Source: Thiosulfatihalobacter marinus (GTDB lineage: Bacteria; Pseudomonadota; Alphaproteobacteria; Rhodobacterales; Rhodobacteraceae). Taken from it: 64,000 bases of DNA. The position numbers and the translations under genes are program-made. Under the pieces are notes generated by a model that was not told the origin of the DNA, searched no databases, and saw nothing but the letters and a program-made list of their open reading frames with translations. Within the stretch, counting starts at the first letter, position 1. Each line of letters begins with the position of its first letter. Below are positions 12,778 to 58,674 of the stretch, in pieces. Location: NCBI RefSeq assembly GCF_016019955.1, contig NZ_JAECRZ010000011.1, forward strand, positions 1-64,000, read 5' to 3'.

Positions 12778-12790
12778 CGCAGCGGGCGGC

Positions 12791-12860
12791 GTTGCGACAT
12801 CGCAACTGACGGGTGCAAGTTTGCACTGGCTGCGTGGCTGGGCGTGTGCCTTGCAAACTT
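12791..12860. promoter_or_regulatory. Palindromes in the leader of the Anbu cluster
   Basis: The 261-bp gap before the ATP-grasp gene has no supported gene. It holds a hairpin GTTGCG-acat-CGCAAC (12791-12806), a near-palindrome GTGCAA-GT-TTGCAC (12813-12826), and a further copy of the core AAGTTTGCA on the opposite strand (TTGCAAACTT, 12851-12860). The repeated core in both directions suggests a regulator binding region for the Anbu cluster. The binding protein is unknown. Confidence 0.4.
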
Positions 12861-13038
12861 TCGGGCCGGGGCAGGCTGAACCCGTCGGTTCCTGCGCGAA
12901 AGTATTGCCCAATTCGACAGCATCAAGACCAGCTCGCCAGAGCTTGCGGCGCCGCAATGCGGCCGGTTTCCGCTTTTTTTCTGTAATGTCGGGACAAAGC
13001 AGATAGGCTGGATGCGAAATGGCAGGTTGATCGGCACC

Positions 13039-14463
13039 ATGGATACAGCAGGACCATTTGACGAAATGTGGGGTACGGACGGGCAATTGTGCCCGCCCTA
13101 TCGGGGGTTTTACGATTGGTTTGATGGTGAAGACCTGACCCGCCTTCGAAAAAAGCAGCGTGACGCCGACGATTTGTTCCGATTGACCGGAATTACGTTC
13201 AACGTTTACGGAAAAGCCGAGGCCGAAGAACGTCTGATTCCGTTCGACATCATCCCGAGAATCATCTCCGGTGGTGAATGGCATCGGCTATCGCGTGGCA
13301 TCGAGCAGCGTGTGCGCGCGATCAATGCCTTTTTGCATGATATCTATCACAATCAGGAAATCATTCGCGCCGGGCGTATCCCCGAAGAGATGATCAGCCG
13401 CAATGCCGCGTTTCTGCCGCATATGATTGGAGTCAAGCCGCCGGGCGGCGTTTATACGCATATTGTGGGCATCGACCTGGTGCGCACGGGCCCGGGAGAG
13501 TTTTTTGTTCTGGAGGACAACGCGCGTACCCCATCGGGGGTGAGTTATATGCTGGAAAATCGGGAAACCATGTTGCAGATGTTTCCCGAGTTGTTCTCTC
13601 GAAACCGGGTGCAGCCGGTGCAGAACTATCCGACAGACCTGCGCCGGTCGCTGGCGGCCAGCGCGCCGCCGGCATGTACCGGCACACCCGTCGTCGCGGT
13701 TCTGACACCCGGCATATACAACTCCGCCTATTTCGAGCACGCGTTCCTGGCCGACAAGATGGGTGTGGAACTGGTCGAAGGAAATGACCTGCGTGTTGTG
13801 GATGGGCGGATTGCGATGCGGACAACGCGGGGCTACACACCGATTGACGTGCTGTACAGACGTGTCGATGACGATTTCCTGGACCCGCTTAATTTCAACC
13901 CCGAGAGCAGCCTGGGTGTGCCTGGCATTATGGATGTCTATCGGGCTGGCGGCATCACGATCGCCAACGCGCCCGGCACCGGAATTGCCGATGACAAGGC
14001 AATCTACAGCTATATGCCGGAGATTGTCGAATTCTATACAGGCGAACGCCCGTTGCTGCCCAATGTGGAAACCTGGCGCTGTTCCGAGCCGGAATCTCTG
14101 GCTTATGTTCTGGACAATCTTCATGAACTGGTGGTGAAAGAGGTCCACGGATCAGGCGGCTACGGCATGTTGATCGGCCCGACAGCCACCAAAAAGGATA
14201 TCGCAGCGTTCCGACGCAAGCTGATTGCCCGCCCGTCCAACTATATCGCGCAGCCCACACTCAGCCTTTCGACCGTCCCGGTCTTTTCCCGCGCCGGGCT
14301 GAGCCCACGTCACGTGGATTTGCGGCCCTTTGTCCTGGTCGGCCCGGATAAGATCCATGTCACGCCAGGCGGTTTGACGCGGGTGGCCCTGAAAAAGGGA
14401 TCTTTGGTGGTGAATTCGTCCCAGGGCGGCGGGACCAAGGACACCTGGGTATTGGAGGACTGA
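13039..14463 (+). CDS. Circularly permuted ATP-grasp protein of the Anbu cluster
   Basis: Protein of 474 residues of the DUF404/DUF407 type, a circularly permuted ATP-grasp fold predicted to make peptide or amide bonds with ATP. Visible blocks are FDEMWGTDGQLCPPYRGFYDW at the start, ERLIPFDIIPRIISGGEW, GVDLVRT-like IVGIDLVRTGPGEFFVLEDNA (metal/ATP region), PDLRR and the C-terminal VVKEVHGSGGYGMLIGP, a glycine-rich ATP loop, and YIAQPTLSLSTVP. The ATG giving MDTAGPF was chosen; an ATG 27 bp upstream is possible and neither has a strong ribosome site. It is the first of four tightly packed genes ending with Anbu, a combination known across proteobacteria and cyanobacteria. The real substrate is unknown. 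Confidence 0.9.
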   Translation: MDTAGPFDEMWGTDGQLCPPYRGFYDWFDGEDLTRLRKKQRDADDLFRLTGITFNVYGKAEAEERLIPFDIIPRIISGGEWHRLSRGIEQRVRAINAFLHDIYHNQEIIRAGRIPEEMISRNAAFLPHMIGVKPPGGVYTHIVGIDLVRTGPGEFFVLEDNARTPSGVSYMLENRETMLQMFPELFSRNRVQPVQNYPTDLRRSLAASAPPACTGTPVVAVLTPGIYNSAYFEHAFLADKMGVELVEGNDLRVVDGRIAMRTTRGYTPIDVLYRRVDDDFLDPLNFNPESSLGVPGIMDVYRAGGITIANAPGTGIADDKAIYSYMPEIVEFYTGERPLLPNVETWRCSEPESLAYVLDNLHELVVKEVHGSGGYGMLIGPTATKKDIAAFRRKLIARPSNYIAQPTLSLSTVPVFSRAGLSPRHVDLRPFVLVGPDKIHVTPGGLTRVALKKGSLVVNSSQGGGTKDTWVLED

Positions 14464-14467
14464 CGCC

Positions 14468-15409
14468 ATGCTTGGGAAAACTGCCAATGGTCTGTTCTGG
14501 ATGTCGCGCTATCTGGAGCGTGCGGAAAACACTGCCCGCCTGATCGAAACCGGCCAAAGGATCGCGCTGACGCGGCTTGGCAGCGGCGATGAGGAGTGGA
14601 CCTCGATCATGAAGACGGCCGGGGTGCTTTCCGGATTCATGGAGATATATGACGAGGTGACTCAGGACGCCGCGGTAGATTGGATGATGCGCGATCATGG
14701 CAACCCTTCCTCCATTCAGTCTTGTATTCTGGGCGCACGACAAAATGCGCGCATGGTACGGGCGGCGATCACCGGTGAAACCTGGGAAGCGATCAACGCG
14801 ACCTATATGTCGACAAAGAGCATTCTGGGGCGCAGGGTCAGTGAACGGGATTTGCCGACCGTGTTGAGTGCCATTCGCCAGCATACCGCGCTGGTGCGTG
14901 GAATGGTGCATGGCACGATGTTGCGAAATGACATCTACGATTTCTTGCGCGTTGGCACGTTTCTGGAGCGTGCGGACAATACAGCGCGTATTCTGGATGT
15001 GAAATACTATGTCCTGCTGCCATCGGTCAGCGCCGTTGGCAGCTCTATCGACAACGTGCAATGGGAAATCATCCTTCGTTCGGTTTCCGCGCGTGGCGGG
15101 TTTCGCATGGAATACGGAGCCGAGGGAGGACCGCAGGAAATCGCCGATTTCCTGATCCTGAACCGGCGGATGCCGCGCAGCCTTGCATTTTGTGTCGGCA
15201 AGATGCGGTCCAATCTGGCGTATCTCAATGCTGATCTGGAAGCACCGTCTGACTCGCAGAAGTTGGTCGCGGAATTGAACGATCTGTATCTTTCGCAGGA
15301 TATCTCGGCGGTGTTCGAATTCGGCCTGCACGAATTCATCCAGAAAATGCTGTCACTTATCGCCGGTATTGCCGGTCAGGTCGAAAAGGATTTTCGGTTT
15401 TATGAGTAA
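14468..15409 (+). CDS. Alpha-E domain protein of the Anbu cluster
   Basis: All-helical protein of 313 residues (DUF403/alpha-E). It begins MLGKTANGLFWMSRYLERAENTARL, the diagnostic first helix with the (M/W)SRYLERAENTAR signature, and repeats it near residue 158 as FLRVGTFLERADNTARILD. Conserved acidic and arginine residues sit in helices, so it may bind the same substrate as the ATP-grasp partner. It starts 4 bp after the ATP-grasp stop and ends 3 bp before the transglutaminase-like gene. Alpha-E proteins almost always occur with or fused to this ATP-grasp family, which supports a joint complex. No enzymatic activity is established for the family. Confidence 0.92.
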   Translation: MLGKTANGLFWMSRYLERAENTARLIETGQRIALTRLGSGDEEWTSIMKTAGVLSGFMEIYDEVTQDAAVDWMMRDHGNPSSIQSCILGARQNARMVRAAITGETWEAINATYMSTKSILGRRVSERDLPTVLSAIRQHTALVRGMVHGTMLRNDIYDFLRVGTFLERADNTARILDVKYYVLLPSVSAVGSSIDNVQWEIILRSVSARGGFRMEYGAEGGPQEIADFLILNRRMPRSLAFCVGKMRSNLAYLNADLEAPSDSQKLVAELNDLYLSQDISAVFEFGLHEFIQKMLSLIAGIAGQVEKDFRFYE

Positions 15410-15412
15410 CCC

Positions 15413-16210
15413 ATGCGCCTGAGCGTTCATCACACAACGCGCTATTTCTTCGATCAGCCTGTTAGATATGGCGTGCAGCAATTGAGAAAGACGCCGAAAA
15501 ACGCGCGACATCAACATGTCGTGGAGTGGCGCACCTCGATCGTGGGGGGGCGCAAGGAGGCCACGTTCGAAGACCATCATCACAACCTGACCGAACTGAT
15601 CAGTATCGACCCCGATATCCAGACCCTGGAATTGGTTTCGCAAGGAACCGTGGAAATGAAGGAAACCCACGGGATCGTGGGGCCGCATCGTGGGCCGGCT
15701 CCGCTGTGGCTTTATGCGCAGGCCACGCGCCGCACAGAGGCGGGCAGTGGCGTTCGGGATTTTTTGTCTGAAATCGACGGGAATATTTCGCTGGATAATC
15801 TTCACCGGCTTTCCGCCAGGATCGGATCGGAGATCCGATACGAGTTGGGTGGATCCTATCCGGACTGGACAGCGGAAGACGCGATCAAGGCCGGTCGCGG
15901 TGTGTGCCAGGACCATTCCCATGTCTTTATTGCCTGCGCCCGAAAGCTGGGTCTACCGGCGCGATATGTCTCTGGATACCTGATGCTGGATGACCGAACG
16001 ACGCAGAATGCAATGCACGCCTGGGCCGAGGCCCATATCGATGGGCTGGGCTGGGTTGGATTCGATGTCTCCAACGGAATATCCCCGGATTCCAGGTATG
16101 TGCGTGTCGCAACTGGACTGGACTATTCCGATGCCGCGCCTGTATCTGGCACACGGGTCGGAGGCGCAGGCGAATCGCTTGAGGTCCAGATAGAAGTGGC
16201 CCAGCAATGA
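15413..16210 (+). CDS. Transglutaminase-like cysteine protease of the Anbu cluster
   Basis: Protein of 265 residues with the Cys-His-Asp triad of transglutaminase-core proteins: C165 in GVCQDHSHVF, H202 in AMHAWAEAHI and D218 in WVGFDVSNG. An N-terminal beta domain (about 1-95, starting MRLSVHHTTRYFFDQPV) is the bacterial transglutaminase N-terminal region. Bacterial members are thought to be peptidases or amide-cutting enzymes rather than cross-linkers. It sits between alpha-E and Anbu with gaps of 3 and 7 bp, so it is probably made together with them. No signal peptide is visible; action is cytoplasmic. Confidence 0.92.
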   Translation: MRLSVHHTTRYFFDQPVRYGVQQLRKTPKNARHQHVVEWRTSIVGGRKEATFEDHHHNLTELISIDPDIQTLELVSQGTVEMKETHGIVGPHRGPAPLWLYAQATRRTEAGSGVRDFLSEIDGNISLDNLHRLSARIGSEIRYELGGSYPDWTAEDAIKAGRGVCQDHSHVFIACARKLGLPARYVSGYLMLDDRTTQNAMHAWAEAHIDGLGWVGFDVSNGISPDSRYVRVATGLDYSDAAPVSGTRVGGAGESLEVQIEVAQQ

Positions 16211-16217
16211 GGCGTTG

Positions 16218-16958
16218 ATGACATATTGCGTTGGAATGATGCTGGAAGCCGGGTTGATCTTTATGTCGGACACCCGCACGAATGCCGGACTCGACAATAT
16301 TTCGACCTTCAAGAAGATGAGCGTCTGGGAGACACCCGGAGAGCGCGTTATCACGCTCTTGTCCTCGGGCAATCTTGCGACGACGCAGGCCGTTGTCAGC
16401 TTGCTGGATGAGCGCCTGAAGTCGCCAGAGGACAGAGACCCGACGTTGTTGGGCGCACCGTCGATGTTCCAGGCCGCCAACCTGGTGGCCGATACGCTAA
16501 GAGAGGTGATTGGCCGCCATGCCCAATCGGGCCAGCGGGCGGACAGTGCCTTTGAAGCCACGCTGATTCTGGGCGGGCAGATAAAGGGCGGGCCGCCGCG
16601 TTTGTTTTTGATCTACCCAGAGGGCAATTTCATAGAGGCCAGTTCGGACACGCCGTTTTTTCAAGTCGGCGAAACGAAATATGGCCGTCCGATTCTTGTG
16701 CGGGCCTATGATTCCGCGATGTCATTCGAGGCGGCGATGAAACTGCTTCTCGTCAGTTTTGACTCGACCGTGAAGGCCAATCTGTCGGTTGGTGCACCGT
16801 TCGATTTTCATTTCTTTCGGACGGATTCTCTGAAGGTTGGCCATGTCGGACGTATCGAACAGGATGACGCCTATCTTCAGGCCATTGCCCAGGATTGGGG
16901 AGATGCGCTCAGAAATGCATTGGAGGGTATGCCGGATTTCACGCTGCCCGCGACCTGA
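16218..16958 (+). CDS. Anbu, bacterial proteasome-homologue peptidase
   Basis: Ntn-hydrolase of the proteasome/HslV superfamily, 246 residues. The ATG giving MTYCVGMM was preferred over a TTG three bases earlier because it places Thr2 as the N-terminal nucleophile after Met removal, as in proteasome subunits. The family block (G)LIFMSDTRTNAGLDNISTF follows; this is the Anbu signature with the conserved Asp and Ser of the active site. The later block IYPEGNFIEASSDTPFFQVGE fits the subunit core. Anbu forms ring or spiral assemblies, and its peptidase activity is poorly defined. It is last in the ATP-grasp/alpha-E/transglutaminase operon, suggesting it degrades or trims a peptide made by the ATP-grasp enzyme. 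Confidence 0.92.
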   Translation: MTYCVGMMLEAGLIFMSDTRTNAGLDNISTFKKMSVWETPGERVITLLSSGNLATTQAVVSLLDERLKSPEDRDPTLLGAPSMFQAANLVADTLREVIGRHAQSGQRADSAFEATLILGGQIKGGPPRLFLIYPEGNFIEASSDTPFFQVGETKYGRPILVRAYDSAMSFEAAMKLLLVSFDSTVKANLSVGAPFDFHFFRTDSLKVGHVGRIEQDDAYLQAIAQDWGDALRNALEGMPDFTLPAT

Positions 16959-17104: not shown

Positions 17105-18469
17105 TCAGCCTGTGCCCGCCTCGGCGGTGATGGCTGTTTCCACAATCGTCAGGGCTGTTTCCAGATCCCGTGAAGAGATGGTCATTGGTGGTGAAAGCGT
17201 CAGAACGTTGCCCGCGCTGATCTTGAAGCTGAGCCCGTCGTTCAGGCATCGATAATATATCCGTTCGGCGGTGGCGAAATCGGGCTCTTTCGTGATCCCG
17301 TCTTGCACGATCTCGATGCCGAACATCAGGCCGCGCCCGCGAATATCTCCGATCAGGGGGCAGGTTTGCGCGAAGGCGCGCAGCCGATCCATCGACCGCG
17401 CCCCAAGCTGCGCCGCGCGTTCAATCAGGCCTTCCGTTTCGATAACGTCCAGTGTCGCCAACGCGGCGGCGGCTGTCACCGGGTTCTTTTCATGGGTGTA
17501 GTGGCCAATGGCGAAATCACCGCAAATATCCAGATCCGCCCGTGCGATCACCGCCGCGATTGGCAGGATACCACCGCCCAGTGCTTTGCCCAGGGTAACG
17601 ATATCCGGGACGATCCCGTCATGTTCGAACGCAAACATCCTGCCGGTTTTCCCAAGACCGGTTGGAATTTCGTCAAGGATCAACAGTGTTCCATGCTTGT
17701 CACAGGCCGCCCGGACCGCCTTCCAGAACCCCGGTGGCGGTACGTAAGGCACCGCGCGCATCGGCTCGGCGATAACGGCGGCCACGTCGCCTTCGCGCCC
17801 CAGAACGTAATCCACCATGTTCGCGCAGGCCAGCGCGCAGCTTTCCGGACCGGCGTGACCATAGGGACAGCGATAGCAGGTGAATGGGGCGACATGTTCG
17901 GTTCCCGGCAGAAGGGGGCCGGCGATGTGACTGCGGAATGTCGCTTCGCCGCCAACCGAGGCCGCGCCGAACCCGGCGCCGTGAAAGGACTCCCAGAATG
18001 ACAGCGTCTTGAACCGTCCCGTCGCCGCGCGGGCGATCTTGAGAGCGACCTCGTTGGCGTCCGATCCGCCGGTTGTGAACAGAACCTTGGACAGGTTGTC
18101 CGGCGCAATGGCCGCCAGTTTTTCGGCCAGTTGCACGGCGGGTTCGTTGGTAAACCGGCGTGGCGCAAAAGGCAGGGCATCCAGCTGCGCCTTGATCGCG
18201 GTGATCACACGGGGGTGGCCATAGCCGATATGGTGGACCGAGTTGCCATGGAAATCCATGTAGCGCCGCCCGTCCAGATCCTCGATCCAGATCCCTTCGG
18301 CCCGTACAATCGTGGATAGGCAGGGGCTGGAGAGGCTTTGATGCAGGAATGCGTTTGCGTCCCGTTCCAGCAAAGGCGCAGAGACCGGACCGATCCGATC
18401 CCGCGCCCATTTTTGCCGCTCTGGCGAGGTATTGGATTCACCCTCGGTATGCGCGATATCCCGCGTCAT
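17105..18469 (-). CDS. pbfA: PLP-dependent (R)-1-hydroxy-2-aminoethylphosphonate ammonia-lyase
   Basis: Class III aminotransferase-fold PLP enzyme, 454 residues. Key residues are D266 ([10 protein letters not shown]) and the PLP lysine K295 (LGKALGGG), with the phosphate-binding [13 protein letters not shown] segment. Sequence alone would suit many omega-aminotransferases; the assignment rests on position after phnY, phnA and phnW, where the PbfA group converts hydroxylated aminoethylphosphonate to phosphonoacetaldehyde with loss of ammonia. The ATG was chosen because it overlaps the phnY stop (ATGA); the longer frame lies over phnY. An insertion with cysteines ([19 protein letters not shown], about residues 198-215) is unusual for plain aminotransferases. 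Confidence 0.8.
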
Positions 18470-19914
18470 TCCGGCCAGGGCAGCGAATAGGTTTTGACGT
18501 TCGTGAAAAATTTCATCGCTTCGATCACACCTTCCTTGACGCCATTGCCGCTGTCCTTGATGCCGCCGAACGGGGACATTTCGATCCGGTAGCCGGGTTG
18601 CTCCCAGATATTGCAGGTGCCGACATTCAGCCCGTTGATAAAGGCGATGGCCCGGTTGAGATCGTTTGTGCACACCCCCGAGGACAGGCCGAATTCCGTC
18701 GCGTTCGAGATTGCCATGACCCGCGCGTCATCGTCGGGAACCCGCACGATCGGGATGATCGGGCCAAAGGTTTCTTCCATCACCAACGCGCTGTCATACG
18801 GAACCTTGTCGACAACGATCGGGGGCAGCAAGGCGCCCTGGCGCCCCGGGTGATACAGGATTTCGGCCCCCTGTTGCGCCGCTTGCAGAACGCGGTCTTC
18901 AAACAGCGCGGCGGCCTGTTCGTGGATCACACAGCCCAGTTCGGTGTCGGGGTCCAACGGATCGCCGAAGCGGATCCTGCGCGCCTTTTCCAGAACCAGC
19001 GGCACAAATCTTTCGGCCACGCTTTCCTGCACCAGAATACGCTTGATCGCCGTACAACGCTGGCCGGAATTGCCTGTCGCCCCGGCCACGGCGATGGCGG
19101 CGGCCTTGTCCAGATCGTCATCGCCCAGATCGTTCAGCACGATCAGCGGGTCATTGCCGCCCAGTTCCAGCGCGGTTCGCTTGTAGCCTGCCTTGGCCGC
19201 AATCATCTTTCCGACAGGCACACCGCCGGTGAAAGTGATGATGTCGATATTGTCGTTGACGATCATCTCGTCGCCGATATCCCCGGGCCAGCCGGTGACC
19301 ACCTGGAACATTTCCGGCGGCAATCCGGCCTCGTACAGGATGTCGGCCAGCGCCAGGGCGGTCAGCGGGGTCAGTTCGGTAGGTTTGCAGACCATGCAGT
19401 TGTTGGTGGCGATGGCGGGAGCGATCTTGTGGCTGACCATGTTCAGCGGATGATTGAACGGGGTGATCGCGCTGATGGCGCGGACCGGTTCGCGCTTGGT
19501 GAAGATCTTGCGCGCCTTGCCGTTATGCGTCAGATCGCAGGAAAAAATCTCGCCATCGTCCTTCAGTGCCTGGGCGGCCGCGAACTGATACACATCCTGG
19601 GCACGCTTGGTCTCGTATATCGCGTGCTGGTGGCAAATACCCAGTTCCAACACCAGCCACCTGGCCAGATAATCACGTTTTTCCCCGATCAGCTCTCCGG
19701 TGCGTTGCAGGATCTGGCTGCGCTCGTACCGTGTAAGGCGGGGGTGATAATTCGCGGCGATTTCAAAGGCTTTTCGCGCGTGTTCGGCTGTGCCGGCGGG
19801 AACGGTGCCAACCAGTTCGCCGGTATAGGGATAGTGAACCGGCACGGTGTTTTCGGCAAACACGACCTTGCCACCGATACGCATACCTTCGTTTCGAATT
19901 TGGAGTTGCGCCAT
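18466..19914 (-). CDS. phnY: Phosphonoacetaldehyde dehydrogenase
   Basis: NAD-dependent aldehyde dehydrogenase of 482 residues that oxidises phosphonoacetaldehyde to phosphonoacetate. Catalytic residues are C287 in NSGQRCTAI and E250 in [10 protein letters not shown]; the coenzyme region shows ITPFNHPLN and FTGGVPVGK. The family is broad, but it lies between phnA and pbfA in a phnWAY arrangement, so the substrate is well supported. The ATG at 19914 ([10 protein letters not shown]) was chosen because AAGG is immediately upstream; an ATG 15 bp earlier is possible. It begins 16 bp after the phnA stop. Confidence 0.9.
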
Positions 19915-19930
19915 TGCCTTGTCCCGCATC

Positions 19931-21175
19931 CTAAAGTGCCGCCGCCATTGTGGCGTAGAAAAACGCATCGAAATTGCGCAGCACCGGAGCGTCGGGCAGG
20001 TCAAGTGCCTTGTTGACGATGAAGGGCACTTCCTGTTCTGTCAGCCCCCCATGGCTGCGCAGGGGTTCCTTGAGCGCGGCGAGATCGTGGCGATGCTCGG
20101 ACGTGCCGATACAGATATTTTCGCCCGAGACCATCACGATATCCCCGATCCGGTCGCCCGGCAGTTCGAAGCGACGGATCGCGTCTTCCCTGGGGATGAC
20201 CAGCATCATGCCCTCCAATGCGCGCAGCCGGGTGATGATGTCGTCGCGGTCTGCCCCTTCGGGCAGATAGGCCGTCGCGAAAGACCCCAGCGCGCCGTGG
20301 TGCACCACGTAAGGATCGGTAATCGGCAGGATCACCCGGCCCGCATCCTTGCCCAGCCACGTATCCAGAAGATCCTGCGCGTAGATCACATTGGGCGTGC
20401 CATCGGCGTGATGTTTCGGCTTCATGCCATGGTCCGCAGTGACCACAATGGCCGCGCCAAGCGCATCAAGCTGCGCCAGATAGCGATCGAACATGGCATA
20501 AAAATCCAGCGCGCCCTGTTCGTGGGGGGCGAATTTGTGCTGAATGTAGTCGGTTGTCGACAGGTACATCACGTCGGGCTTGAATTCGTTCAGCAGCTTG
20601 ACGCCGGCTGCGAACACGAACTCGCTCAGCTCTGCCGAATACACTTCGGGCACGTCCATGCCCAACCATGCGCTGGCATTGTCGATGCCGTGCTTATCCC
20701 TTGTTGTCTCGCCCGCGCGTTCCGAGGAAAACGCCACCGCGCGATCTTCGTCGAATTTCAGGCCCGCCCCCAGCAAGGCTCTCAGCTTGTCCTTGGCCGT
20801 CACCACCGCCACGCGGGCACCGGCCTGATAAAACTGCGAAAACAAGGTTGGCGCGCGCAGAAAGCGCACGTCATTCATCATCACCTCTTCGCCGCTGTCC
20901 GGATCGATCAGATAGTTGCCGCAAATGCCGTGAACGCTTGGCGGGCGCCCGGTTGCGATCGACAGGTTGTTGGGGTTGGTAAAGCTGGGGATGACGGAAT
21001 GGGCCAGCCGGTCTGTTCCGGTTTCGCGCATGTGCTTGAGCGTGGGCATCAGCCCCTTGGCGATGGCCACATCCAGATATTCCGGCTCGCAACCGTCCAG
21101 ACAGATCGCGACCGCAGGCACTTTGGGAAACGGATATGCGCGGTCGTTGGCCGTGACCGGGGCTTGGATGTTCAT
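19931..21175 (-). CDS. phnA: Phosphonoacetate hydrolase
   Basis: Alkaline-phosphatase superfamily enzyme of 414 residues that cuts the C-P bond of phosphonoacetate, giving acetate and phosphate, with zinc. The nucleophile Thr66 is in [15 protein letters not shown]; the first metal Asp is D27 in [11 protein letters not shown]; further ligands are in [18 protein letters not shown] (Asp, His) and [16 protein letters not shown] (Asp-His), and HGGL near the C-terminus. Length and motifs match phosphonoacetate hydrolases rather than nucleotide pyrophosphatases. It is the second gene of the 2-aminoethylphosphonate operon. Confidence 0.94.
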
Positions 21176-30546: not shown

Positions 30547-30663
30547 AAATAATTTGTGCCTCAAAAATATTTACCTGGGCCGTGCTCCGGTGGTTGGCAG
30601 GGCGGCCGGGTTGGCGATAATGGGCCTGAGAGCGTGAGATTGCACGCGGCGCCGGAGGATTGC

Positions 30664-31764
30664 ATGGACGCGGATTTTGCCATTGTCGGAGGCGGGATTG
30701 TCGGCCTGTCGGTGGCATGGGGTCTGTTGCGGGCCGGTCAGAGTGTTGTGGTGGTGGACGGGGCGGATGACGCGCTGCGCGCCAGCCGGGGCAATTTCGG
30801 GCTGATCTGGGTGCAGGGCAAGGGGCTGAACGCGCCGCATTATGCGCGCTGGAGCCGGCGCTCGGCGGCGCTGTGGGGCGATTTTGCGCAAGAGCTTGAG
30901 GATAACACGGGGCTGGATCTGGCGCTGCGCCAGGAGGGAGGGCTGGACCTGCATTTCAGCGATGGCAGCCTGGCCGATTGCGCCACCCGCTACGCCGCGT
31001 TGCGCGCTGAACTGGGCGGGGATTATCCGTTCGAGGTACTGACCGGCGCGGCGCTGATGCGCGAAGAGCCCGGGATCGGGCCGAAAGTGGCTGGGGCGGT
31101 GCTGCATCCCGAAGATGGCCACGCCAATCCGCTGATGTTGCTGCGCGCCCTGAGCGAGGATGTGCGCCGCCTTGGCGGGCGGCTGGAAACCGGGCGGATG
31201 GTATCGCAACTGCTGCCGCCGGGGGAGGGGTTTGCCCTGGGCTGTGCGGATGGCACGGTGTTTCATGCCGGACGGGTGGTGTTGGCGGCAGGACTGGGCG
31301 CGGCGGCGCTGGGCCCGCAGCTGGGGTTTGCCGCGCCGGTCACGCCCGAACGGGGGCAGGTTCTGATCACGGAAAAGCTGCCGCCGCTGATCCGGCGGCC
31401 GTCGCTGATTGCCCGGCAGGTGGGCGAAGGCGCGGTGCAGATCGGAGCGACGAACGAGCGCGCCGGGCTGGATGATCGCAGCACCCGAAAGGGCATGGCG
31501 CAGCTGGCGGCCGAGGCCGTGGCCGCCTATCCGGCGCTGGCCCAGGCGCAATTGGTGCGCAGTTGGGGCGCGTTGCGGGTGATGTCGCCCGACGGATTGC
31601 CGATCTATCAGGAAAGTGAGGCGGTGCCGGGGGCGTTTCTGATAACCTGCCACAGTGGCATCACGCTGGCCGCCGCGCATGCGCGGCTGATGCCGAATTG
31701 GATTCTGGGGCGCGACGGTGCGCCCGATCTGGAGGTGTTTGGTGAAGCCAGATTTGCGGTTTGA
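30664..31764 (+). CDS. FAD-dependent amino-acid/opine dehydrogenase, beta-like subunit (DadA/HcnC type)
   Basis: D-amino-acid oxidase-fold protein, 366 residues. The FAD motif is FAIVGGGIVGLSVAWGL at residues 6-22; VVVDGADDALRASRGNFGL is the ribose-binding region; the C-terminus has SWGALRVMSPDGLPIYQES and ITCHSGITLAAAHA, the usual GHG-like flavin contact. The ATG was chosen because GGAGG lies 5 bp upstream. The three overlapping genes here match the three-subunit hydroxyproline, octopine/nopaline or HCN-synthase type enzymes (HcnC-A-B order). The substrate is probably a D-amino acid, hydroxyproline or opine; which one cannot be read. Confidence 0.85.
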   Translation: MDADFAIVGGGIVGLSVAWGLLRAGQSVVVVDGADDALRASRGNFGLIWVQGKGLNAPHYARWSRRSAALWGDFAQELEDNTGLDLALRQEGGLDLHFSDGSLADCATRYAALRAELGGDYPFEVLTGAALMREEPGIGPKVAGAVLHPEDGHANPLMLLRALSEDVRRLGGRLETGRMVSQLLPPGEGFALGCADGTVFHAGRVVLAAGLGAAALGPQLGFAAPVTPERGQVLITEKLPPLIRRPSLIARQVGEGAVQIGATNERAGLDDRSTRKGMAQLAAEAVAAYPALAQAQLVRSWGALRVMSPDGLPIYQESEAVPGAFLITCHSGITLAAAHARLMPNWILGRDGAPDLEVFGEARFAV

Positions 31765-34905: not shown

Positions 34906-36363
34906 CTAGTATAGGGAAAAATATTCGGCCTGCTCCCATTCGGAGAGGGCCGAGACATAGCGGGACCATTCGGCGCGCTTGATCGTGGTGAACCAATCCA
35001 CGAAACCCGCGCCAAGCGCGTCCCGGTACAGCGCGCTGTTTTCGAAATGCATGATGGCGTCGGCCAGGCTGGCGGGCAGGGCGGGTGCGGTGCCGTCATA
35101 GGGTTGTTCGCAGGGCGGCGGGGCGATCATGTCGCGATCCAGCCCCGACAGGCCCGAGATGATCTGGCTGGCAAAGACGAAATAGGGGTTGGCGGCGCTT
35201 TCGGGCACGCGGTTTTCGATGCGGCTGGCCGGGTCGCCGGGGGCGAGCAGCGCGCGCAGCATGGCGCCGCGATTGTCCTGGCCCCATTGGATACGGTCGG
35301 GCGCGAGTTGAAACGGCTGATAGCGTTTGTAGCCGTTCACGGTGGGCGTGGTCAGCAGGCAGCTTTCGTTGGCGTGCACCAGAAGGCCGGCGATCCATGC
35401 GGTGGCGTAGGGTGTCAGCGCGCCGTTGGAGCCGGGGGTGAACAGGTTGTCGCCGTTGGCGTTGCACAAAGATTGGTGCAGGTGCCAGCCGGAGGCGGCG
35501 GCGTTTTCCAGCCGGGGGCGGCACATGAAGGTGGCATGCAGCCCGCGCCGGGCGCAGAGCTCTTTCGCCATGGTGCGGAACATCACCATCGTGTCGGCAT
35601 GGGTCATCGGGTCGGCGGGATCGAAGGTGAATTCGAACTGTGACGGGCCCATTTCGACCTCGGTCGAGCGCACCGGCATCCGCATGGCCTGCGCGGTGCG
35701 GCGCAGATCGTCCATCACCGGCTCTAGCTGATCGTAAAGCGCATCGGTGAGGAACTGGTAGCCGGTGGCCAGCGGGCGGGTGCGCGGCGGATGTGGCGGC
35801 ATGGTGGTATCGCGGTGGCGCGGATGCGGGTCGCGTTTTTCGAAGACGTGGAATTCCAGTTCAAGCCCCACGGTCAGCGACAGGTCGCGCGCGCCAAGCC
35901 GGTCCAGCGCGGTGCGCAGCACGCTGCGCGGGGCAAATGGGATCGGGGCACCGGATTTGAAATGCGCGTCACACAGAAGCCACGCGGAATGGGGCGACCA
36001 TGGCAGGGGGTGGAAGGTGGCCGGATCGGGAACCAGCAGGATATCGCCCGCGCCGCGCATCGGATCGGCATCGGTGGCGGCCGCACCGGACCAGACCGGA
36101 AAGACGGTGCGGTGCGATGTGTCCTTGAGCAGCAGGGTGGACGGCGCGGCCATGCCGCCCGCCAGGATCGCGGGCAGGGCGGCGGCGGTGACGGTCTTGC
36201 CGCGCAGGACGCCATGCTGATCGGGGAACAGCACGCGGATGGTTTCAAGATCCGAGGCGGCCACGGTATCGGCCAGCGTGGCGGCGGCGTGGATCCGCGC
36301 ATCCGGCATCAGGCCAAGGCGCGCCAGGGCGCCGTTTGCGATCATGTCCTTGTGGCGGGTCAC
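34906..36363 (-). CDS. Glutamine-synthetase-like ligase
   Basis: Glutamine synthetase-superfamily enzyme of 485 residues. Start set at GTG (36363), because AGGAG is ideally placed (CAACAGGAGCCGCC); the longer open frame starts inside the adjacent mobile element. Glu ligands of the metal sites are seen in TVGLELEFHVFE and STEVEMGPSQFEF; the ammonia/substrate region is GWHLHQSL and the ATP-binding arginines are in ASRIENRVPESAANPY. It lacks the usual GlnA adenylylation context and is distant from GlnA, so it more likely gamma-glutamylates an amine. The operon partner is an arylamine N-acetyltransferase; the substrate is unknown. Confidence 0.83.
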   Translation of the reverse strand: MTRHKDMIANGALARLGLMPDARIHAAATLADTVAASDLETIRVLFPDQHGVLRGKTVTAAALPAILAGGMAAPSTLLLKDTSHRTVFPVWSGAAATDADPMRGAGDILLVPDPATFHPLPWSPHSAWLLCDAHFKSGAPIPFAPRSVLRTALDRLGARDLSLTVGLELEFHVFEKRDPHPRHRDTTMPPHPPRTRPLATGYQFLTDALYDQLEPVMDDLRRTAQAMRMPVRSTEVEMGPSQFEFTFDPADPMTHADTMVMFRTMAKELCARRGLHATFMCRPRLENAAASGWHLHQSLCNANGDNLFTPGSNGALTPYATAWIAGLLVHANESCLLTTPTVNGYKRYQPFQLAPDRIQWGQDNRGAMLRALLAPGDPASRIENRVPESAANPYFVFASQIISGLSGLDRDMIAPPPCEQPYDGTAPALPASLADAIMHFENSALYRDALGAGFVDWFTTIKRAEWSRYVSALSEWEQAEYFSLY

Positions 36364-36466
36364 GGCGGCTCCTGTTGTGATGGCTTTGTTCCGGGGATCA
36401 AACACCAGTGGCGTGTGCGCGGCAAGGTTTGCGCGCGCGCTCTTTGGCCCTGGGCGGGCCGCTTCG

Positions 36467-36734
36467 CTAGGGTCAGGACCCATTAATCCTGCGCCACTAG
36501 TTTAACAGATTTGCTGTCTGACTACGTACAATGCCGCAGGAATAGTGGTTCTATTTCAAGGCATTGAAAGGACGTCAGGCGGCAAATCCGTCAAATCCGT
36601 AGGACGCCAAATCCACTTCATCCCAGCGGCTTGGCACGCTTGGAAATAGAGCCACTATGTCCGGCGCGCGCCAAACCCCCGATATTTCGTGGATTTGGCG
36701 CCAGTGGTGCAGGATTAACGGGTCCTGACCCTAG
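36467..36734. mobile_element. 268-bp fold-back MITE
   Basis: A non-coding element with 34-bp terminal inverted repeats identical at 31 of 34 positions: left 36467-36500 (CTAGGGTCAGGACCCATTAA...), right 36701-36734. Internal arms pair too (ATAGTGG-TTCTATTTC near 36543-36562 with its complement near 36639-36656), so most of it folds back on itself. The ends are CTAG on both sides, compatible with a TA or CTA(G) target duplication as made by IS5-family enzymes. There is no internal frame for a transposase. The right end supplies the TAG stop of the Rieske gene. Confidence 0.75.
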
Positions 36735-48737: not shown

Positions 48738-51380
48738 CTATTCGGCGGCGGCTTGGCCCAGCGTGGCGTTCAGCAGCGCGGCAAGTTCGGGGCGGCAGGA
48801 GCCGCAGTTGGAGCCGGCCTGAAGGGCGGTGCCGATCTCGTCCACGCTGAGCAGGTTCTGTTGGGTGATGGCGGCGATGATGGTGTTCACCCCGACATTG
48901 AAACAGGCGCAGACCGTGGCGCCGGGATCGGGCTGGTCCTGACCCGGGCGGCCCGCGAGGGCGGCGGCGCCGGGGGTGCCCAGCAGGGCCGATATATGGG
49001 CGCGCGCCACGGCGACGGGTTCGGGCGCGGTATAAAGCGCGCCGATCAGGGCGCCGTTGTCGTGCAGGGCGATGCGGGTTGTGGATTTCGCAGGATCGAT
49101 GACGCTGGAGACCTGCGCGCCGGGTGCGTCAAAGAGGGCGCGGGCAAAATCCTCCCAGTTGTCGGGCGTTTGCAAACCGGCCAGTTCGCTGCGCCAGCCG
49201 GAACTGTGGCGGGCGTTGGCCCAGTAATCGGTTTTTGGCGCGAGCGGTGTGGAGGAGACCGCGAACCCATACCATTCGGGTGCGTATGGCGCGATCGAGA
49301 CCATGGCCGATTTACTGTCGGGCTGGCCCGAGACCGGATCGGTGCGGGGGGGGACCAGTGTGCCTATGCGTCCTGCCGAGGCGGTTTCGGATGTCCAGTG
49401 GATCGGGGCAAAGACGGTGCCGGGGCGCAGTCGGTCGGTGATCAGAACACGCAGGACGGCATGGCCGTGCTGGTTCGAAACCCGGGCAAGTTCGGCGGGT
49501 TTCAGGCCAAGGGCGAGCGCGTCTTCGGGGTGGATTTCCAGAAAGGGCTCGCCATAGTGCTGGTTGAGCCGGGGCGCGCGGGCGGTGCGGGTCATGGTGT
49601 GCCACTGATCGCGGATACGGCCGGTGTTGAGGCGAAAGCGGTGGGGTGGGGTGCGGACGGAAGGGGCCTGTTCCACAGCCAGCATGTTGGCGCGTCCCGA
49701 CGCGGTAAAGAAGCGCCCGTCGCCGAACAGGCGGTCGGCGGGTTTGTTGCGGGCGCTGACGGGCCAGCGTATGGGGCGCAGGGCATCGTATTCCGTATTG
49801 GACAGGTCCGCGAGGCCGGAGATGTCAAAATCCTTGCCCTGCGCGGCGGCCAGGCCGGAAAGGGCGGCGTATTCGCGGAAGATCTCGGCGGGGCAGGAAT
49901 AATCGAACGCGGCCTGCCAGCCCATGCGGCGACCGATTTCGGTGATGATGTCCCAATCGTGGCGCGCCTGGCCTGGGGCGGGCAGGACGCTGCGCTGGCG
50001 CGAGATCGTGCGGTCTGAATTGGTGACGGTTCCGTCCTTTTCGCCCCAGCCGGTGGCGGGCAGCACCACGTCGGCAAGGCGCGCGGTGTCGGTGGTGCCG
50101 GTGAGGTCGGAGACCACGGCAAAGTCACAGCCCGCGATGGCATCACGCACGGCATCGGCATCCGGCATGGACACGGCAGGATTGGTGCACATGATCCAAA
50201 GCGCCTTGATCCGGCCATCGGCCACGGCGCGGAACATGTCCACCGCCTTCAGCCCGGGCCGTTCGGGCATGGCGGGGGCGGACCAAAAGCCACCGACAAG
50301 GGCGCGGTGATCGGGGTTTTCGATATCCAGGTGGCAGGCGAGCATATTGGCCAGCCCGCCCACCTCGCGCCCGCCCATGGCGTTGGGTTGGCCAGTGACA
50401 GAGAACGGTCCCATGCCGGGCTGGCCGATGCGGCCCGTGGCAAGGTGGCAGTTCAGGATCGCGTTCACCTTGTCCGAGCCCTGAGCGGATTGGTTCACAC
50501 CCTGGGAAAAGACAGTGACAACCTTTTCCGTGCGCACCCAGAGGTTCAGGAAATGCATCAACTGGTCGTCGGGAAGGCCGGTTTCGGCGGTGTCTGTGGA
50601 ACTGGCGGTATCAAGGGCTTCGCGCAGGCCGGACACGTGGTTGGAAACGAAATCCGCGTCCACGGCGCCTTGTTGGTGGATCTCCGCGAGCAGGCGGTTG
50701 AACAGGGCCACGTCGGTGCCGGGGGCGATTGCAAGGTGCAGATCGGCGATGTCGGTGGTGGCGGTGCGGCGCGGGTCGATGACCACGATGCGCATGTTGG
50801 GACGGGTCTTTTTGGCGGCCGCGATGCGTTGATAAAGAACCGGGTGGCACCAGGCCAGGTTGGACCCGACCAGCACGACCAGATCGGCCAGTTCCAGATC
50901 TTCGTAGGTGCCGGGCACCGTGTCGGTGCCGAAGGCGCGTTTGTGGCCAGCGACGGTGGAAGCCATGCAGAGGCGCGAGTTGGTGTCGATGTTGGCCGAT
51001 CCGATGAAGCCCTTCATCAGCTTGTTGGCGACGTAGTAATCCTCGGTCAGAAGCTGGCCCGAAACATAGAAGGCCACCGAGTCCGGCCCATGCATGGCGA
51101 TGGTGTCGGAGAACCGGGTGGCGACCAGATCGAGCGCCTCGTCCCAGCTTGCGGAACGGTTGGCGATCTGCGGCGTGAGAAGACGACCGTCGGTATCGAC
51201 GGTCTCGCCGAGCGCCGACCCCTTGGAGCAGAGCCGGCCGAGATTGGCCGGATGGGCCGGATCGCCCTTGATCGCCAGCCCGCCCGCGCCGTCCGGGGCG
51301 GCCAGAACGCCGCAACCGGTGCCGCAATAGGGGCAGGTGGTGCAGGTCGCGTTGGCGGGGGTCAGATCAAGGTCTTTCAT
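48738..51380 (-). CDS. nasA: Assimilatory nitrate reductase catalytic subunit
   Basis: Molybdopterin enzyme reducing nitrate to nitrite in the cytoplasm, 880 residues. The N-terminal [4Fe-4S] site has C16, C19, C23 (CPYCGTGC) and the fourth Cys in LGRLCSKGSALG. Mo-bisMGD segments include NIDTNSRLCMASTVAGHKRAFG, GRIGQPGMGPFSVTGQPNAMGGREVG (with the molybdenum-side chain region) and RDQWHTMTRTARAPRLN. A C-terminal BFD-like [2Fe-2S] domain carries VCACFNVG and GSNCGSCRPEL, the type that takes electrons from NAD(P)H-linked partners. Last gene of the nitrate operon; start overlaps nirD stop by 1 bp (TGATG). Confidence 0.96.
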   Translation of the reverse strand: MKDLDLTPANATCTTCPYCGTGCGVLAAPDGAGGLAIKGDPAHPANLGRLCSKGSALGETVDTDGRLLTPQIANRSASWDEALDLVATRFSDTIAMHGPDSVAFYVSGQLLTEDYYVANKLMKGFIGSANIDTNSRLCMASTVAGHKRAFGTDTVPGTYEDLELADLVVLVGSNLAWCHPVLYQRIAAAKKTRPNMRIVVIDPRRTATTDIADLHLAIAPGTDVALFNRLLAEIHQQGAVDADFVSNHVSGLREALDTASSTDTAETGLPDDQLMHFLNLWVRTEKVVTVFSQGVNQSAQGSDKVNAILNCHLATGRIGQPGMGPFSVTGQPNAMGGREVGGLANMLACHLDIENPDHRALVGGFWSAPAMPERPGLKAVDMFRAVADGRIKALWIMCTNPAVSMPDADAVRDAIAGCDFAVVSDLTGTTDTARLADVVLPATGWGEKDGTVTNSDRTISRQRSVLPAPGQARHDWDIITEIGRRMGWQAAFDYSCPAEIFREYAALSGLAAAQGKDFDISGLADLSNTEYDALRPIRWPVSARNKPADRLFGDGRFFTASGRANMLAVEQAPSVRTPPHRFRLNTGRIRDQWHTMTRTARAPRLNQHYGEPFLEIHPEDALALGLKPAELARVSNQHGHAVLRVLITDRLRPGTVFAPIHWTSETASAGRIGTLVPPRTDPVSGQPDSKSAMVSIAPYAPEWYGFAVSSTPLAPKTDYWANARHSSGWRSELAGLQTPDNWEDFARALFDAPGAQVSSVIDPAKSTTRIALHDNGALIGALYTAPEPVAVARAHISALLGTPGAAALAGRPGQDQPDPGATVCACFNVGVNTIIAAITQQNLLSVDEIGTALQAGSNCGSCRPELAALLNATLGQAAAE

Positions 51381-51712
51381 CAGGCGGCGGCCTCGGTCGC
51401 GAGGTGGGTTCCGTCCAGCATGACCCGCCCATCAAGGATGCGGGTGGGGTAGGTGGCGATCTGGCCGTCATCGGCGCCCTGGGCCTCGCCGGTCTCAAGG
51501 CTGAAAACCCAGTTGTGCAGCGGACAAGTTACCTTGCGCCCGTGCACGATGCCTTCGGAGAGGGGGCCGCCCTTGTGCGGGCAGCGGTCCGAAGTGGCGA
51601 ACACTTCGTTGTCGTCGGTGCGGAACACGGCGACACAGCCCAGTTCGGTTTTCACGATACGCGCGCCGCGCAGGGGGATGTCGGTGATGGCGCCAATGTC
51701 GATCCAGCTCAT
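51380..51712 (-). CDS. nirD: Nitrite reductase small subunit, with intact Rieske ligands
   Basis: 110 residues, Rieske-fold partner of NirB. All four [2Fe-2S] ligands are present: C44-H46 (CPHKGG) and C63-H66 (CPLHNWVF), unlike enteric NirD which lost them. The start MSWIDIGAITD overlaps the nirB stop (ATGA). It helps deliver electrons in nitrite reduction to ammonium. The longer open frame upstream lies over nirB and was dropped. Confidence 0.95.
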   Translation of the reverse strand: MSWIDIGAITDIPLRGARIVKTELGCVAVFRTDDNEVFATSDRCPHKGGPLSEGIVHGRKVTCPLHNWVFSLETGEAQGADDGQIATYPTRILDGRVMLDGTHLATEAAA

Positions 51713-54153
51713 TCTGCGGCCTCCAGTGTCAGGTTGGCGATAGGGTGATAGGTGGCCGCCTTTTCGCGGGCGTGTTCGGCCCATGGGTCGGTGCGATAGA
51801 CGGATTGGGAGATCTCGAACCGGTCGGCCAGCGCCTTGCGGTTTTTCAGATCGTCGACGATCTGTTCCCTGACCCAGTCGAGACCCACCTTGGCGACCCA
51901 TTTGAAAACGCGGTCAAGGTATTTGGCATTTTCGCGGTAGATCTGGGTCATGGCCGAGATCACTTCGATGGCGTCTTCCTCGGTGGCGACCTTGCACAGC
52001 AATTCGGTTTCCTTGACCTCCATGCCAGCCGCGCCGGCGATGGAAATCTCGTAGCCCGAGTCGACACAGATCACGCCGATATCCTTGCAGGTGGCCTCGG
52101 CGCAGTTGCGCGGACAGCCCGAGACCCCGAGCTTGAGTTTGTGCGGTGTCCACGACCCCCAGAGGTGTTTTTCCAGCTTGATGCCAAGCCCGGTGCTGTC
52201 TTGTGTCCCAAAACGGCAATGGTCCGCGCCAACACAGGTTTTTACCGTGCGCAGGCCCTTGGAATAGGCGTGGCCCGAGACCAGCCCGGCCTGGTTGAGA
52301 TCGTACCAGATGGCGGGCAGGTCTTCTTTCCTGACGCCAAGAAGGTCGATGCGCTGACCGCCTGTGACCTTGACGGTGGGCACGGCGTATTTGTCGGCGG
52401 CATCGGCAATGGCGCGCAGTTCTTCGGGGGTGGTGATGCCGCCCCACATGCGCGGCACGACGGAATAGGTGCCGTCTTTCTGGATATTGGCGTGGTTGCG
52501 TTCGTTGACAAAACGCGATTGCGGATCGTCGGCATAGTCCAGCGGCCAGTCGGCCAGCAGGTAGTAATTGATCGCCGGGCGGCAGACATGGCAACCGTTG
52601 GGCGTGCTCCAGCCGAGTTCCTGCCAGACGGCGGGCTGGGATTTCAGTGCGCGGGATTTGATCAGGCGGCGCACGTCCTCGTGGCTCAGGTCGGTGCAGC
52701 CACAGACCGAGGCGGCGGCGGGCATGACGAAATCGTCCCCCAGCGTGGTGGCGAGCACCTGTTCCACAAGCCCGGTGCAGGTGCCGCAGGAGGCGGATGC
52801 CTTTGTGGTGGCACGGATCGCGCCAAGGTCTGTGGCGCCGTTGTTGATGGCGTCGACGATCTGACCTTTGCAAACGCCGTTGCAGCCGCAGATTTCTGCG
52901 TCAGCCGGTAAGGCTGCAACGGCCGCCATAGGGTCCAGGGCGGCCCCCCCTTGGTAGGCGGGTCCAAAGATCAGGGTGTCGCGCATTTCGGATATGTCGG
53001 TGCCGTCTTTGATCAGGCCAAAGAACCAGTTGCCGTCTGCGGTGTCGCCATACATCACGGCGCCGATGAGGCGATTTTCCGCGATCACCAGGCGCTTGTA
53101 GACGCCGCGCGCCGGGTCGCGGAAGACGATGTCCTCGCGCCCCTCGGCTTCGGCAAAATCCCCGGCAGAGAACAGGTCACAGCCCGTGACCTTGAGCTTG
53201 GTCGAGACTTCCTTGTTCCTGAACGCCGCCTCTTCGCCGAGCAGGGTCTTGGCGAGCACCCTGGCCTGATCATAGAGAGGGGCGACGAGGCCGAAGATAT
53301 TGCCGTCATGTTCGACACATTCGCCAAGGGCGAGGATGTTGGCATCGGAAGTGACCATCTGATCGTCGACATGGATGCCGCGACCGGTGGCGAGGCCCGC
53401 GTCAGCGGCCAGCGCGATGGCGGGGCGGATGCCGACGGCCATGACCAGCAGGTCACAGGGCAGTTCGGTGCCGTCATCCAGCAGCAGGGCCTTGACCTTG
53501 CCATTCTCGCCCAGAATTTCCCTGGAGTTGGCCGAGCATTTCACCGTGATGCCCTTGTCGACCAGTGCCTTGCGCAAGAGATACCCGGCGGCCTCGTCAA
53601 GCTGGCGCTCCATCAGGTGGCCCATGATATGCACAACGGTCACGTCGACGCCGCGCGCCTTGAGGCCCGCCGCCGCTTCGAGACCCAGAAGGCCGCCGCC
53701 GATGACAACCGCCCTGGCGCCGGGCCGGTCGCCAAGGGCGATCATGGCGTTGGTGTCTTCGAGGTCGCGGTAAGCGATCACGCCGTCAAGATCGTGGCCG
53801 GGAAGCGGGATGATAAAGGGGGCGGAGCCGGTTGCGATGATCAGCTTGTCATATTCCAGCACATCGCCGTTTTCCGCCGTGACCGTCCTGGCGGATTTGT
53901 CGATGGCGGTGATCTTTTCGCCAAAGCGGCAGGTGACGCCGTTTTCCTCGTACCATTCGGCGGTGTGGGTGACGATCTCGTCGAATGTCTTGTCGCCGGA
54001 GAGCACGGGGGACAGCATGATGCGGTTATAGGTGCCGCGCGGTTCGGCGTTGAACAGGGTGATGTTGTAAGCGTTGGGGGCGTGTTCCAGCAGGTGTTCG
54101 AGCGCGCGGCCCGAAGCCATGCCAGCCCCGACGATGATCAGTTTCTGTTTCAT
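51709..54153 (-). CDS. nirB: NAD(P)H-nitrite reductase large subunit
   Basis: Reduces nitrite to ammonium with six electrons, 814 residues, cytoplasmic. N-terminal FAD/NAD domains (LIIVGAGMASGRALEHLLE, later VVIGGGLLGLEAAAGLKARG). A BFD-like [2Fe-2S] domain is in the middle (CGCNGVCKGQIVDAI ... CGTCTG), with a further CGC/CHVC segment. The C-terminal sirohaem/[4Fe-4S] part has CVGADHCRFG and VSGCPRNCAEATC, giving the four cluster cysteines. ATG at 54153 was chosen over a GTG 9 bp upstream that overlaps the preceding gene. 5 bp after the ATPase gene. Confidence 0.96.
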   Translation of the reverse strand: MKQKLIIVGAGMASGRALEHLLEHAPNAYNITLFNAEPRGTYNRIMLSPVLSGDKTFDEIVTHTAEWYEENGVTCRFGEKITAIDKSARTVTAENGDVLEYDKLIIATGSAPFIIPLPGHDLDGVIAYRDLEDTNAMIALGDRPGARAVVIGGGLLGLEAAAGLKARGVDVTVVHIMGHLMERQLDEAAGYLLRKALVDKGITVKCSANSREILGENGKVKALLLDDGTELPCDLLVMAVGIRPAIALAADAGLATGRGIHVDDQMVTSDANILALGECVEHDGNIFGLVAPLYDQARVLAKTLLGEEAAFRNKEVSTKLKVTGCDLFSAGDFAEAEGREDIVFRDPARGVYKRLVIAENRLIGAVMYGDTADGNWFFGLIKDGTDISEMRDTLIFGPAYQGGAALDPMAAVAALPADAEICGCNGVCKGQIVDAINNGATDLGAIRATTKASASCGTCTGLVEQVLATTLGDDFVMPAAASVCGCTDLSHEDVRRLIKSRALKSQPAVWQELGWSTPNGCHVCRPAINYYLLADWPLDYADDPQSRFVNERNHANIQKDGTYSVVPRMWGGITTPEELRAIADAADKYAVPTVKVTGGQRIDLLGVRKEDLPAIWYDLNQAGLVSGHAYSKGLRTVKTCVGADHCRFGTQDSTGLGIKLEKHLWGSWTPHKLKLGVSGCPRNCAEATCKDIGVICVDSGYEISIAGAAGMEVKETELLCKVATEEDAIEVISAMTQIYRENAKYLDRVFKWVAKVGLDWVREQIVDDLKNRKALADRFEISQSVYRTDPWAEHAREKAATYHPIANLTLEAAE

Positions 54154-54158
54154 GGGGT

Positions 54159-55850: not shown

Positions 55851-55856
55851 GTCGGA

Positions 55857-56939: not shown

Positions 56940-56961
56940 GGGTCAGGTCCTTGGGGGGCTG

Positions 56962-57023
56962 GCCGCTCCTCATGCCCTTGCGGGCTTTCCTCGCGAGGAC
57001 GCCCGGTGGGGCGGAGGAGCGGC
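56962..57023 (-). promoter_or_regulatory. Stem-loop between nrtA and nrtB
   Basis: In the 98-bp gap the arms GCCGCTCCTC (56962-56971) and GAGGAGCGGC (57014-57023) pair perfectly over 10 bp and enclose a further palindrome CCTCGCGAGG (56989-56998). A structure after a binding-protein gene commonly stabilises its mRNA and lowers expression of the permease genes behind it. No T tract, so not an intrinsic terminator. Confidence 0.65.
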
Positions 57024-57037
57024 GCGTTGTGCGTTGC

Positions 57038-58405: not shown

Positions 58406-58450
58406 GGTGCATTATCCTTTTGATGTGCCCCGCCGAAGAGGAAAGGGGCG

Positions 58451-58509
58451 AAAAAAACAAGAAAGCCGCTGACCGGACCTGTGGATTTCACAGGCGGTCG
58501 AGCGGCTTT
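58451..58509 (-). terminator. Leader terminator (probable NasT-controlled attenuator) before nrtA
   Basis: On the minus strand a long hairpin begins AAAGCCGCT and ends AGCGGCTTT (58462-58509), with inner pairs CGACCG/CGGTC-type and CCTGTG-CACAGG around a 5-nt loop, followed by CTTGTTTTTTT (58451-58461). It lies 46 bp upstream of the nrtA start and behind nasT-nasS, so it would stop transcription of the structural genes unless NasT allows read-through. A smaller hairpin CCCCG-CTGC-CGGGG is just upstream (58520-58533). Confidence 0.85.
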
Positions 58510-58625
58510 GCCCGGATGTCCCCGGCAGCGGGGAAGAGGAGATTTGCGAGGCGCCATTGCCCCGGCTTGAACTTATTTGGGCGCGGGGCGGGGCGGGGTG
58601 CAAGGATTCGCCGCGTGTTTTCCGG

Positions 58626-58672: not shown

Positions 58673-58674
58673 GA

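Follow-up and report, generated by a model that had tools for sequence, protein, structure and literature searches.

Layout and identity of the operon

The first 64,000 nucleotides of contig NZ_JAECRZ010000011.1 of Thiosulfatihalobacter marinus, hereafter the window, carry a four-gene operon of the proteasome homologue Anbu on the forward strand at 13039-16958. The first gene (13039-14463) encodes a circularly permuted ATP-grasp protein of family CP_ATPgrasp_2, predicted to form amide bonds (Pfam 554 bits, cut-off 32). It matches the solved chain 3n6x over its full length (E 1.3e-188), for which the name "putative glutathionylspermidine synthase" is the depositors' label. Its start was taken as 13039, while 13012 is the alternative start of the mechanically called open reading frame (ORF). 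It is followed by Alpha-E (14468-15409; Pfam 291 bits), an all-helical partner in which an ER motif is repeated internally, and then by a transglutaminase-like (TG) protein of the Cys-His-Asp type (15413-16210; Pfam Transglut_core 76 bits and Bact_transglu_N 58 bits; 3isr, E 1.6e-12). The last gene (16218-16958; Pfam Proteasome 24 bits) is Anbu itself, a proteasome-like Ntn hydrolase without propeptide. Its residues 1-241, C-terminal extension included, align to five solved Anbu sequences with E values from 8.9e-90 (5loy) to 5.2e-68 (5nyj gives 6.8e-75). A scan with NCBIfam returned nothing for the first three proteins and a sub-threshold proteasome match for Anbu. The Pfam and structure matches bear out the original prediction of a complete operon here, and the spacers of 4, 3 and 7 bp agree with the close packing it described. 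This packing suggests that the four genes are co-transcribed. In a scan for promoters and terminators, sites were no commoner than in shuffled sequence (3 vs 2.0; 7 vs 5.0). Ahead of the operon lies an intergenic region (12778-13038, +) behind a DsbA-like gene. The genome assembly (4.16 Mb, 66 contigs) has a single match each for Alpha-E, CP_ATPgrasp_2, Bact_transglu_N and Anbu, and these are the copies in the operon.

Is this a new kind of gene cluster? It is not; the published Anbu operon is present here in an ordinary, intact form, with the same four genes, order and residues and the same lack of an Anbu propeptide. It differs in lying in a genome without sigma-54, next to phosphonate genes, and at a site not common to its congeners. 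The combination of genes was already recognised as known by the original prediction; PMC5666114 and PMC6376114 credit it to Valas and Bourne 2008 and to Iyer et al. 2009, and point to the latter for the idea of peptide synthesis or tagging. They also report solved Anbu structures, no cleavage of standard peptides, and ATP hydrolysis by the ATP-grasp homologue of Yersinia bercovieri. No function is known for Anbu according to PMC8665760, and our literature search, which did not reach Iyer et al. 2009 or the majority of subscription papers, found no paper on its substrate. This agrees with the earlier statement that the substrate is not established.

Conserved residues and a model of Alpha-E

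The Anbu gene opens with ATG-ACA at 16218, and the Thr directly after Met is the predicted exposed nucleophile. Thr2, Asp18 and Lys33 of Anbu are kept in all 28 aligned sequences. In the ATP-grasp protein E159, D160, N161, R163, K320, K367 and Q462, which we take to bind ATP or metal, are kept in 48 of 48. Each of E17, R18, E167 and R168 of Alpha-E is kept in 48 of 49 aligned sequences, and the TG triad Cys165, His202 and Asp218 is present in the window protein. The catalytic residues are thus intact, as had been claimed, and the alignments show no decay of the active site of Anbu or ATP-grasp. The further claim that the system is probably active seems a fair one, because these residues are under purifying selection.

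Alpha-E has no significant match among solved structures in a sequence search. An AlphaFold2 model predicts an all-helical protein (predicted local distance difference test score 93.1, predicted template modelling score 0.91), and the motif LERA-D/E-NTAR occurs twice in the sequence, at residues 15-24 and 165-174. A family member so far without a solved relative in that search thereby gains a confident predicted model with an internal repeat. Two candidate relatives were set aside. The NIT domain of NasR (4akk) was the best VIA match and fell under the level deemed safe for helical bundles; cullin-4B, the sole profile match among solved sequences (E 0.0068), was taken as chance.

Anbu is found together with Alpha-E

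How tightly is Anbu tied to the other genes of the operon? Alpha-E occurs in 43 of 114 genomes sampled from the class. Analysis covered 40 of the 42 Alpha-E-bearing genomes other than that of the window (G060 and G076 were left out), and Anbu adjoins Alpha-E in 21 of the resulting 41, window genome included. In a sample of the phylum Anbu is present in 161 of 397 genomes. From the matches listed, 80 Anbu-bearing genomes were drawn, one per genus, and every one of the 80 has Alpha-E. The pattern holds within the genus, where the 9 genomes of 25 that have Alpha-E are also the 9 that have Anbu. An Alpha-E fragment in G121 is not a decayed gene, as the contig ends there. Anbu was not found without Alpha-E, and this co-occurrence shows that Anbu depends on the ATP-grasp/Alpha-E module. 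One Anbu match (G305, locus L154) was reported with a TAA inside, possibly just its end stop.

No substrate gene beside the operon

If the operon acted on a dedicated protein or peptide encoded nearby, some neighbour might recur across genomes. Neighbours were clustered at 88 canonical loci, taking ORFs of at least 100 amino acids (aa) within 4 kb on each side and, up to 700 bp away, also those of 25-99 aa. No fixed substrate gene emerged at the 88 loci. The commonest neighbour family, short-chain dehydrogenase-like as judged by eye, reaches 11 loci and the second, ABC ATPase-like by eye, 10; both stand in varied positions and on varied strands. There is no conserved small ORF of 25-99 aa within 700 bp either, the largest cluster covering 4 of 88 loci, all close relatives. 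A prior clustering of 41 class loci and 8 congeners had the same outcome. Most likely, then, the substrate is not encoded beside the Anbu operon.

Loss of the TG gene and a second Alpha-E system

Are all four proteins needed together in cis? This is not general, for the TG is missing or Cys-less in a minority of Anbu genomes, and these mostly carry a second Alpha-E system. The second system (e.g. L177, L181, L207) has ATP-grasp, Alpha-E and TG domains homologous to those of the window operon. It differs in that a single fused protein of about 800-900 aa combines ATP-grasp and Alpha-E, in that a large additional TG (about 1100 aa) accompanies a small one, and, as a rule, in the lack of an Anbu of its own.

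The hypothesis was formed on the class set, and the set of 80 genomes served as validation. Among the 21 Anbu loci of the class, the TG is intact in 15 (one of them, L071, with a different TG type and Anbu on the other strand) and not intact in 6, being absent from G109, G080, G046 and G067 and having its Cys replaced in G031 and G078. A fused second Alpha-E is present in all 6 genomes lacking the TG, while a second Alpha-E is present in 2 of the 15 with it, the one in G054 being unfused (p 5e-4). In the 80-genome set, 58 genomes have an intact TG beside Anbu, and 20 of these have the second system; of the 4 without (G448, Cys to Pro; G458, G385 and G162, absent), 3 have it. Anbu stands apart from Alpha-E in 13 genomes. 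In five of these Alpha-E adjoins an intact TG, and all five have the second system; seven have no TG there (G152, G303, G314, G318, G407, G433, G209), six of them with it. The remaining G034 was left out of the count, as a TG of the fused system adjoins its ATP-grasp and makes it ambiguous. Weak TG-like ORFs in G407 and G433 (53-55 bits) and in L109 (Cys-Ala-Asp) were not counted as operon TGs. With the genomes with a remote Anbu included, the validation gives 9 of 11 lacking against 25 of 63 intact (p 0.019). Over both sets the second system is found in 15 of 17 genomes whose TG is lost or Cys-less and in 27 of 78 whose TG is intact (Fisher p 7e-5).

Could the second system supply the missing activity? 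Its TG has Cys-His-Asp in all 9 cases inspected in genomes that lost the first TG (L177-L182, L220-L222). A Bact_transglu_N domain occurs elsewhere in 15 of the 17 TG-lacking genomes, and it is absent from 14 of 14 Alpha-E-negative control genomes. In G303, G318, G407, G152 and G385 the two systems are no more than about 15 kb apart, so that supply in trans means a nearby second gene set there. The congener G136 has an operon without Anbu on one contig (L088), and its sole Anbu is on another (L207:4915-13356), between the small TG and the fused ATP-grasp/Alpha-E system. We therefore suggest, with considerable doubt, that the Anbu operon and the fused system may be two arms of one pathway, with a common pool of TG and a swappable Anbu. 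The operon TG could then perhaps be lost or inactivated wherever the other arm provides a TG, and either arm could have Anbu beside it, as in G136. If the two arms are real, their substrates would be the same or interconvertible, and the substrate of either arm would identify that of the other. A literature search found no paper on TG sharing between two systems, most subscription papers being outside its reach.

Several points weigh against sharing. Restricted to contiguous operons on one strand, the validation is weak (3 of 4 vs 20 of 58, p 0.14), and the group with a remote Anbu was defined after the data were seen. In five more genomes Anbu is encoded on the opposite strand (G144, G151, G290, G353, G357), and two of them have the second system; adding them weakens the overall contrast to 17 of 22 against 27 of 78 (p 5e-4). 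No Bact_transglu_N reaches the cut-off anywhere in the genomes G162, G209, G353 and G357, and G290 has a sub-threshold match genome-wide. These five, which have Anbu and Alpha-E, seem to do without a Bact_transglu_N TG or to use another. There is also a somewhat unlikely alternative, that the link reflects genome size or lineage, large genomes simply keeping more copies. It draws on the second systems present in the 27 of 78 genomes with intact TG, and on a single family (f142) that supplies 6 of the 15 positives. Against a lineage effect, losses accompanied by the second system span 10 families and the link persists when the losses are counted with one vote per family (p 5e-4, genome size not being controlled in this figure).

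Regulation and nitrogen

Is the operon under nitrogen control? Upstream regions were scanned at the 88 loci, 8 of which had no usable region, leaving 80. Of the 80 operons, 18 are preceded by a sigma-54-like site scoring at least 9 of 11, whereas the reverse strand gives 2 and shuffled sequence 3.1; at a score of at least 10 the numbers are 9 against 0 and 0.4. NtrC-like palindromes with at most 2 mismatches precede 12 of 80 operons, against 3.2 in shuffles (35 against 24.5 at 3 mismatches). A sigma-54 gene over cut-off is present in 65 of the 80 operon genomes. The sites do not clearly follow the factor, which speaks against this control: in a comparison with 7 of the 80 loci left out, sites of at least 9 occur in 16 of 58 sigma-54-bearing and 2 of 15 sigma-54-less genomes (p 0.21), and sites of at least 10 in 9 of 58 and 0 of 15 (p 0.11).

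In the window genome sigma-54 (PF04552) has no match, by which sigma-54 control of this operon is rejected, and any nitrogen control there must run otherwise. Upstream of the operon no sigma-54-like site scores above 8 of 11; the best one, at about -293, falls within the preceding gene, and a candidate noted by eye near 12845 was dropped as not strong in the site scoring. An NtrC-like palindrome with 2 mismatches lies at 12801-12817; judging from shuffled sequence, chance alone would give one as good in about 3.2 of 80 such regions.

Expression data exist for P. putida. On nitrate versus ammonium, PP_2685 (Anbu) changes by log2 4.44 and PP_2688 (ATP-grasp) by log2 3.99 (PMC8050072); under one nitrogen limitation the values are 11.1 for PP2685, 6.6 for PP2686 and 7.1 for PP2687 (PMC3325844). 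A third study gives 12.6, 11.0 and 14.7 for PP_2686, PP_2687 and PP_2688 in the wild type (PMC7801951). Two of its results weigh against a simple nitrogen switch through sigma-54. Induction persists in the rpoN mutant (14.2, 16.0 and 19.6), which speaks against strict sigma-54 control there, and Anbu rises just 1.12-fold in the wild type, whereas it is up in PMC8050072 and PMC3325844. Expression is unchanged under various other conditions (PMC5666114). In Burkholderia a cluster of DUF404/407, DUF403 and TG is NtrC dependent, and 95% of NtrC-dependent genes are also sigma-54 dependent (PMC5491218). A CP_ATPgrasp_1 gene with a sigma-54-type site has been listed (PMC13207237), and these domains have been linked to urea-metabolism domains in marine metagenomes (PMC3597751).

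Mobility and surroundings of the operon

The genes upstream of the operon (holB, TatD, an MBL-fold gene and a permease) are syntenic in all 20 congener regions, from 20 of 24 congeners, and DsbA comes next in 17 of the 20. The operon and the phosphonate genes were matched in none of the 20 regions, which extend roughly 9 kb beyond the permease (in G125, 1.3 kb); 8 of these 20 congeners have the operon elsewhere in the genome. In six congeners the ORFs past DsbA have no match in the window. For nine genomes the operon tree and the housekeeping tree are discordant, and the approximately unbiased (AU) test rejects each on the other's data. Because the site is not shared and the trees conflict, we conclude that the operon has changed its place within the genus, either by transfer or by relocation.

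Directly after the operon, on the reverse strand at 17105-21175, are phosphonate genes, all over NCBIfam cut-offs: PbfA ((R)-1-hydroxy-2-aminoethylphosphonate ammonia-lyase), phosphonoacetaldehyde dehydrogenase and phosphonoacetate hydrolase PhnA. Farther along there are a DAO oxidoreductase (30556-31764, +), a glutamine-synthetase-like protein (34909-36483, -) and a region resembling nitrate/nitrite assimilation (48741-59850, -), with a molybdopterin oxidoreductase, a NirB-like reductase, an ABC ATPase pair and two NMT1_2 proteins. Third-position G+C differs between the stretches at 8 to 22 kb and 25 to 64 kb of the window: for the picked ORFs it is about 0.61-0.75 up to 23 kb and mostly 0.75-0.85 after 25 kb.

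A possible function

What, then, might the operon do? The reading we favour, at something short of an even chance, is a cycle that makes and breaks amides on a peptide-like substrate not encoded nearby, often induced by nitrogen limitation, with the TG shared with the sister system. As its protein family suggests, the ATP-grasp, probably with Alpha-E, would activate a carboxylate with ATP and join it to an amine. The TG would cleave or transfer amides of the same material; it would usually come from the operon and, where missing, as the genome patterns suggest, usually from the sister fused system with its own TG. Anbu, through its N-terminal Thr, would hydrolyse the product or an intermediate. 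Nitrogen limitation may switch the set on in many Proteobacteria, as is in print for P. putida. A sister set is NtrC dependent in Burkholderia, and in the sigma-54-less window genome any such control would have to take another route. Published results also count against this cycle. Co-expressed proteins of the operon gave no stable complex and no peptidase activity in PMC5666114 and PMC6376114, and Fuchs et al. deem a role in peptide synthesis less likely.

Two other explanations deserve mention. One is protein tagging, the idea of the original prediction: proteins would receive a peptide or an amine from ATP-grasp and TG, and Anbu would either take off this tag or degrade the protein that bears it. 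An operon that joins a proteasome homologue to one or two bond-forming enzymes would suit it, and it is the proposal of Iyer et al. 2009 cited in PMC5666114 and PMC6376114; we consider it unlikely, given that no partner gene is fixed within 4 kb of the 88 loci (a carrier could be unlinked) and that small ORFs within 700 bp are not conserved. Quite unlikely is a stand-alone protease for protein turnover in nitrogen shortage, merely modulated by its neighbours: binding of epoxomicin and MG132 to Anbu Thr1, a ring of many sites that argues for processivity (PMC5666114) and induction on nitrogen limitation (PMC8050072, PMC3325844) fit it, but Alpha-E accompanies Anbu in all 80 genomes and concordantly in the genus, standard peptides are uncleaved in the published accounts, and no unfoldase gene is among the recurrent neighbours, with products judged by eye.

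Anbu has solved structures, yet in the accounts cited above (PMC5666114, PMC6376114, PMC8665760) no established substrate or activity. What is new here is comparative: Anbu depends on Alpha-E and has no linked substrate gene, and there is a hint that its TG is shared with the sister system. The search for the substrate is thereby narrowed, as linked genes most likely do not encode it, Anbu accompanies Alpha-E, and the TG may be common to both systems. With these results, strains that have one system or two allow a clean genetic test.

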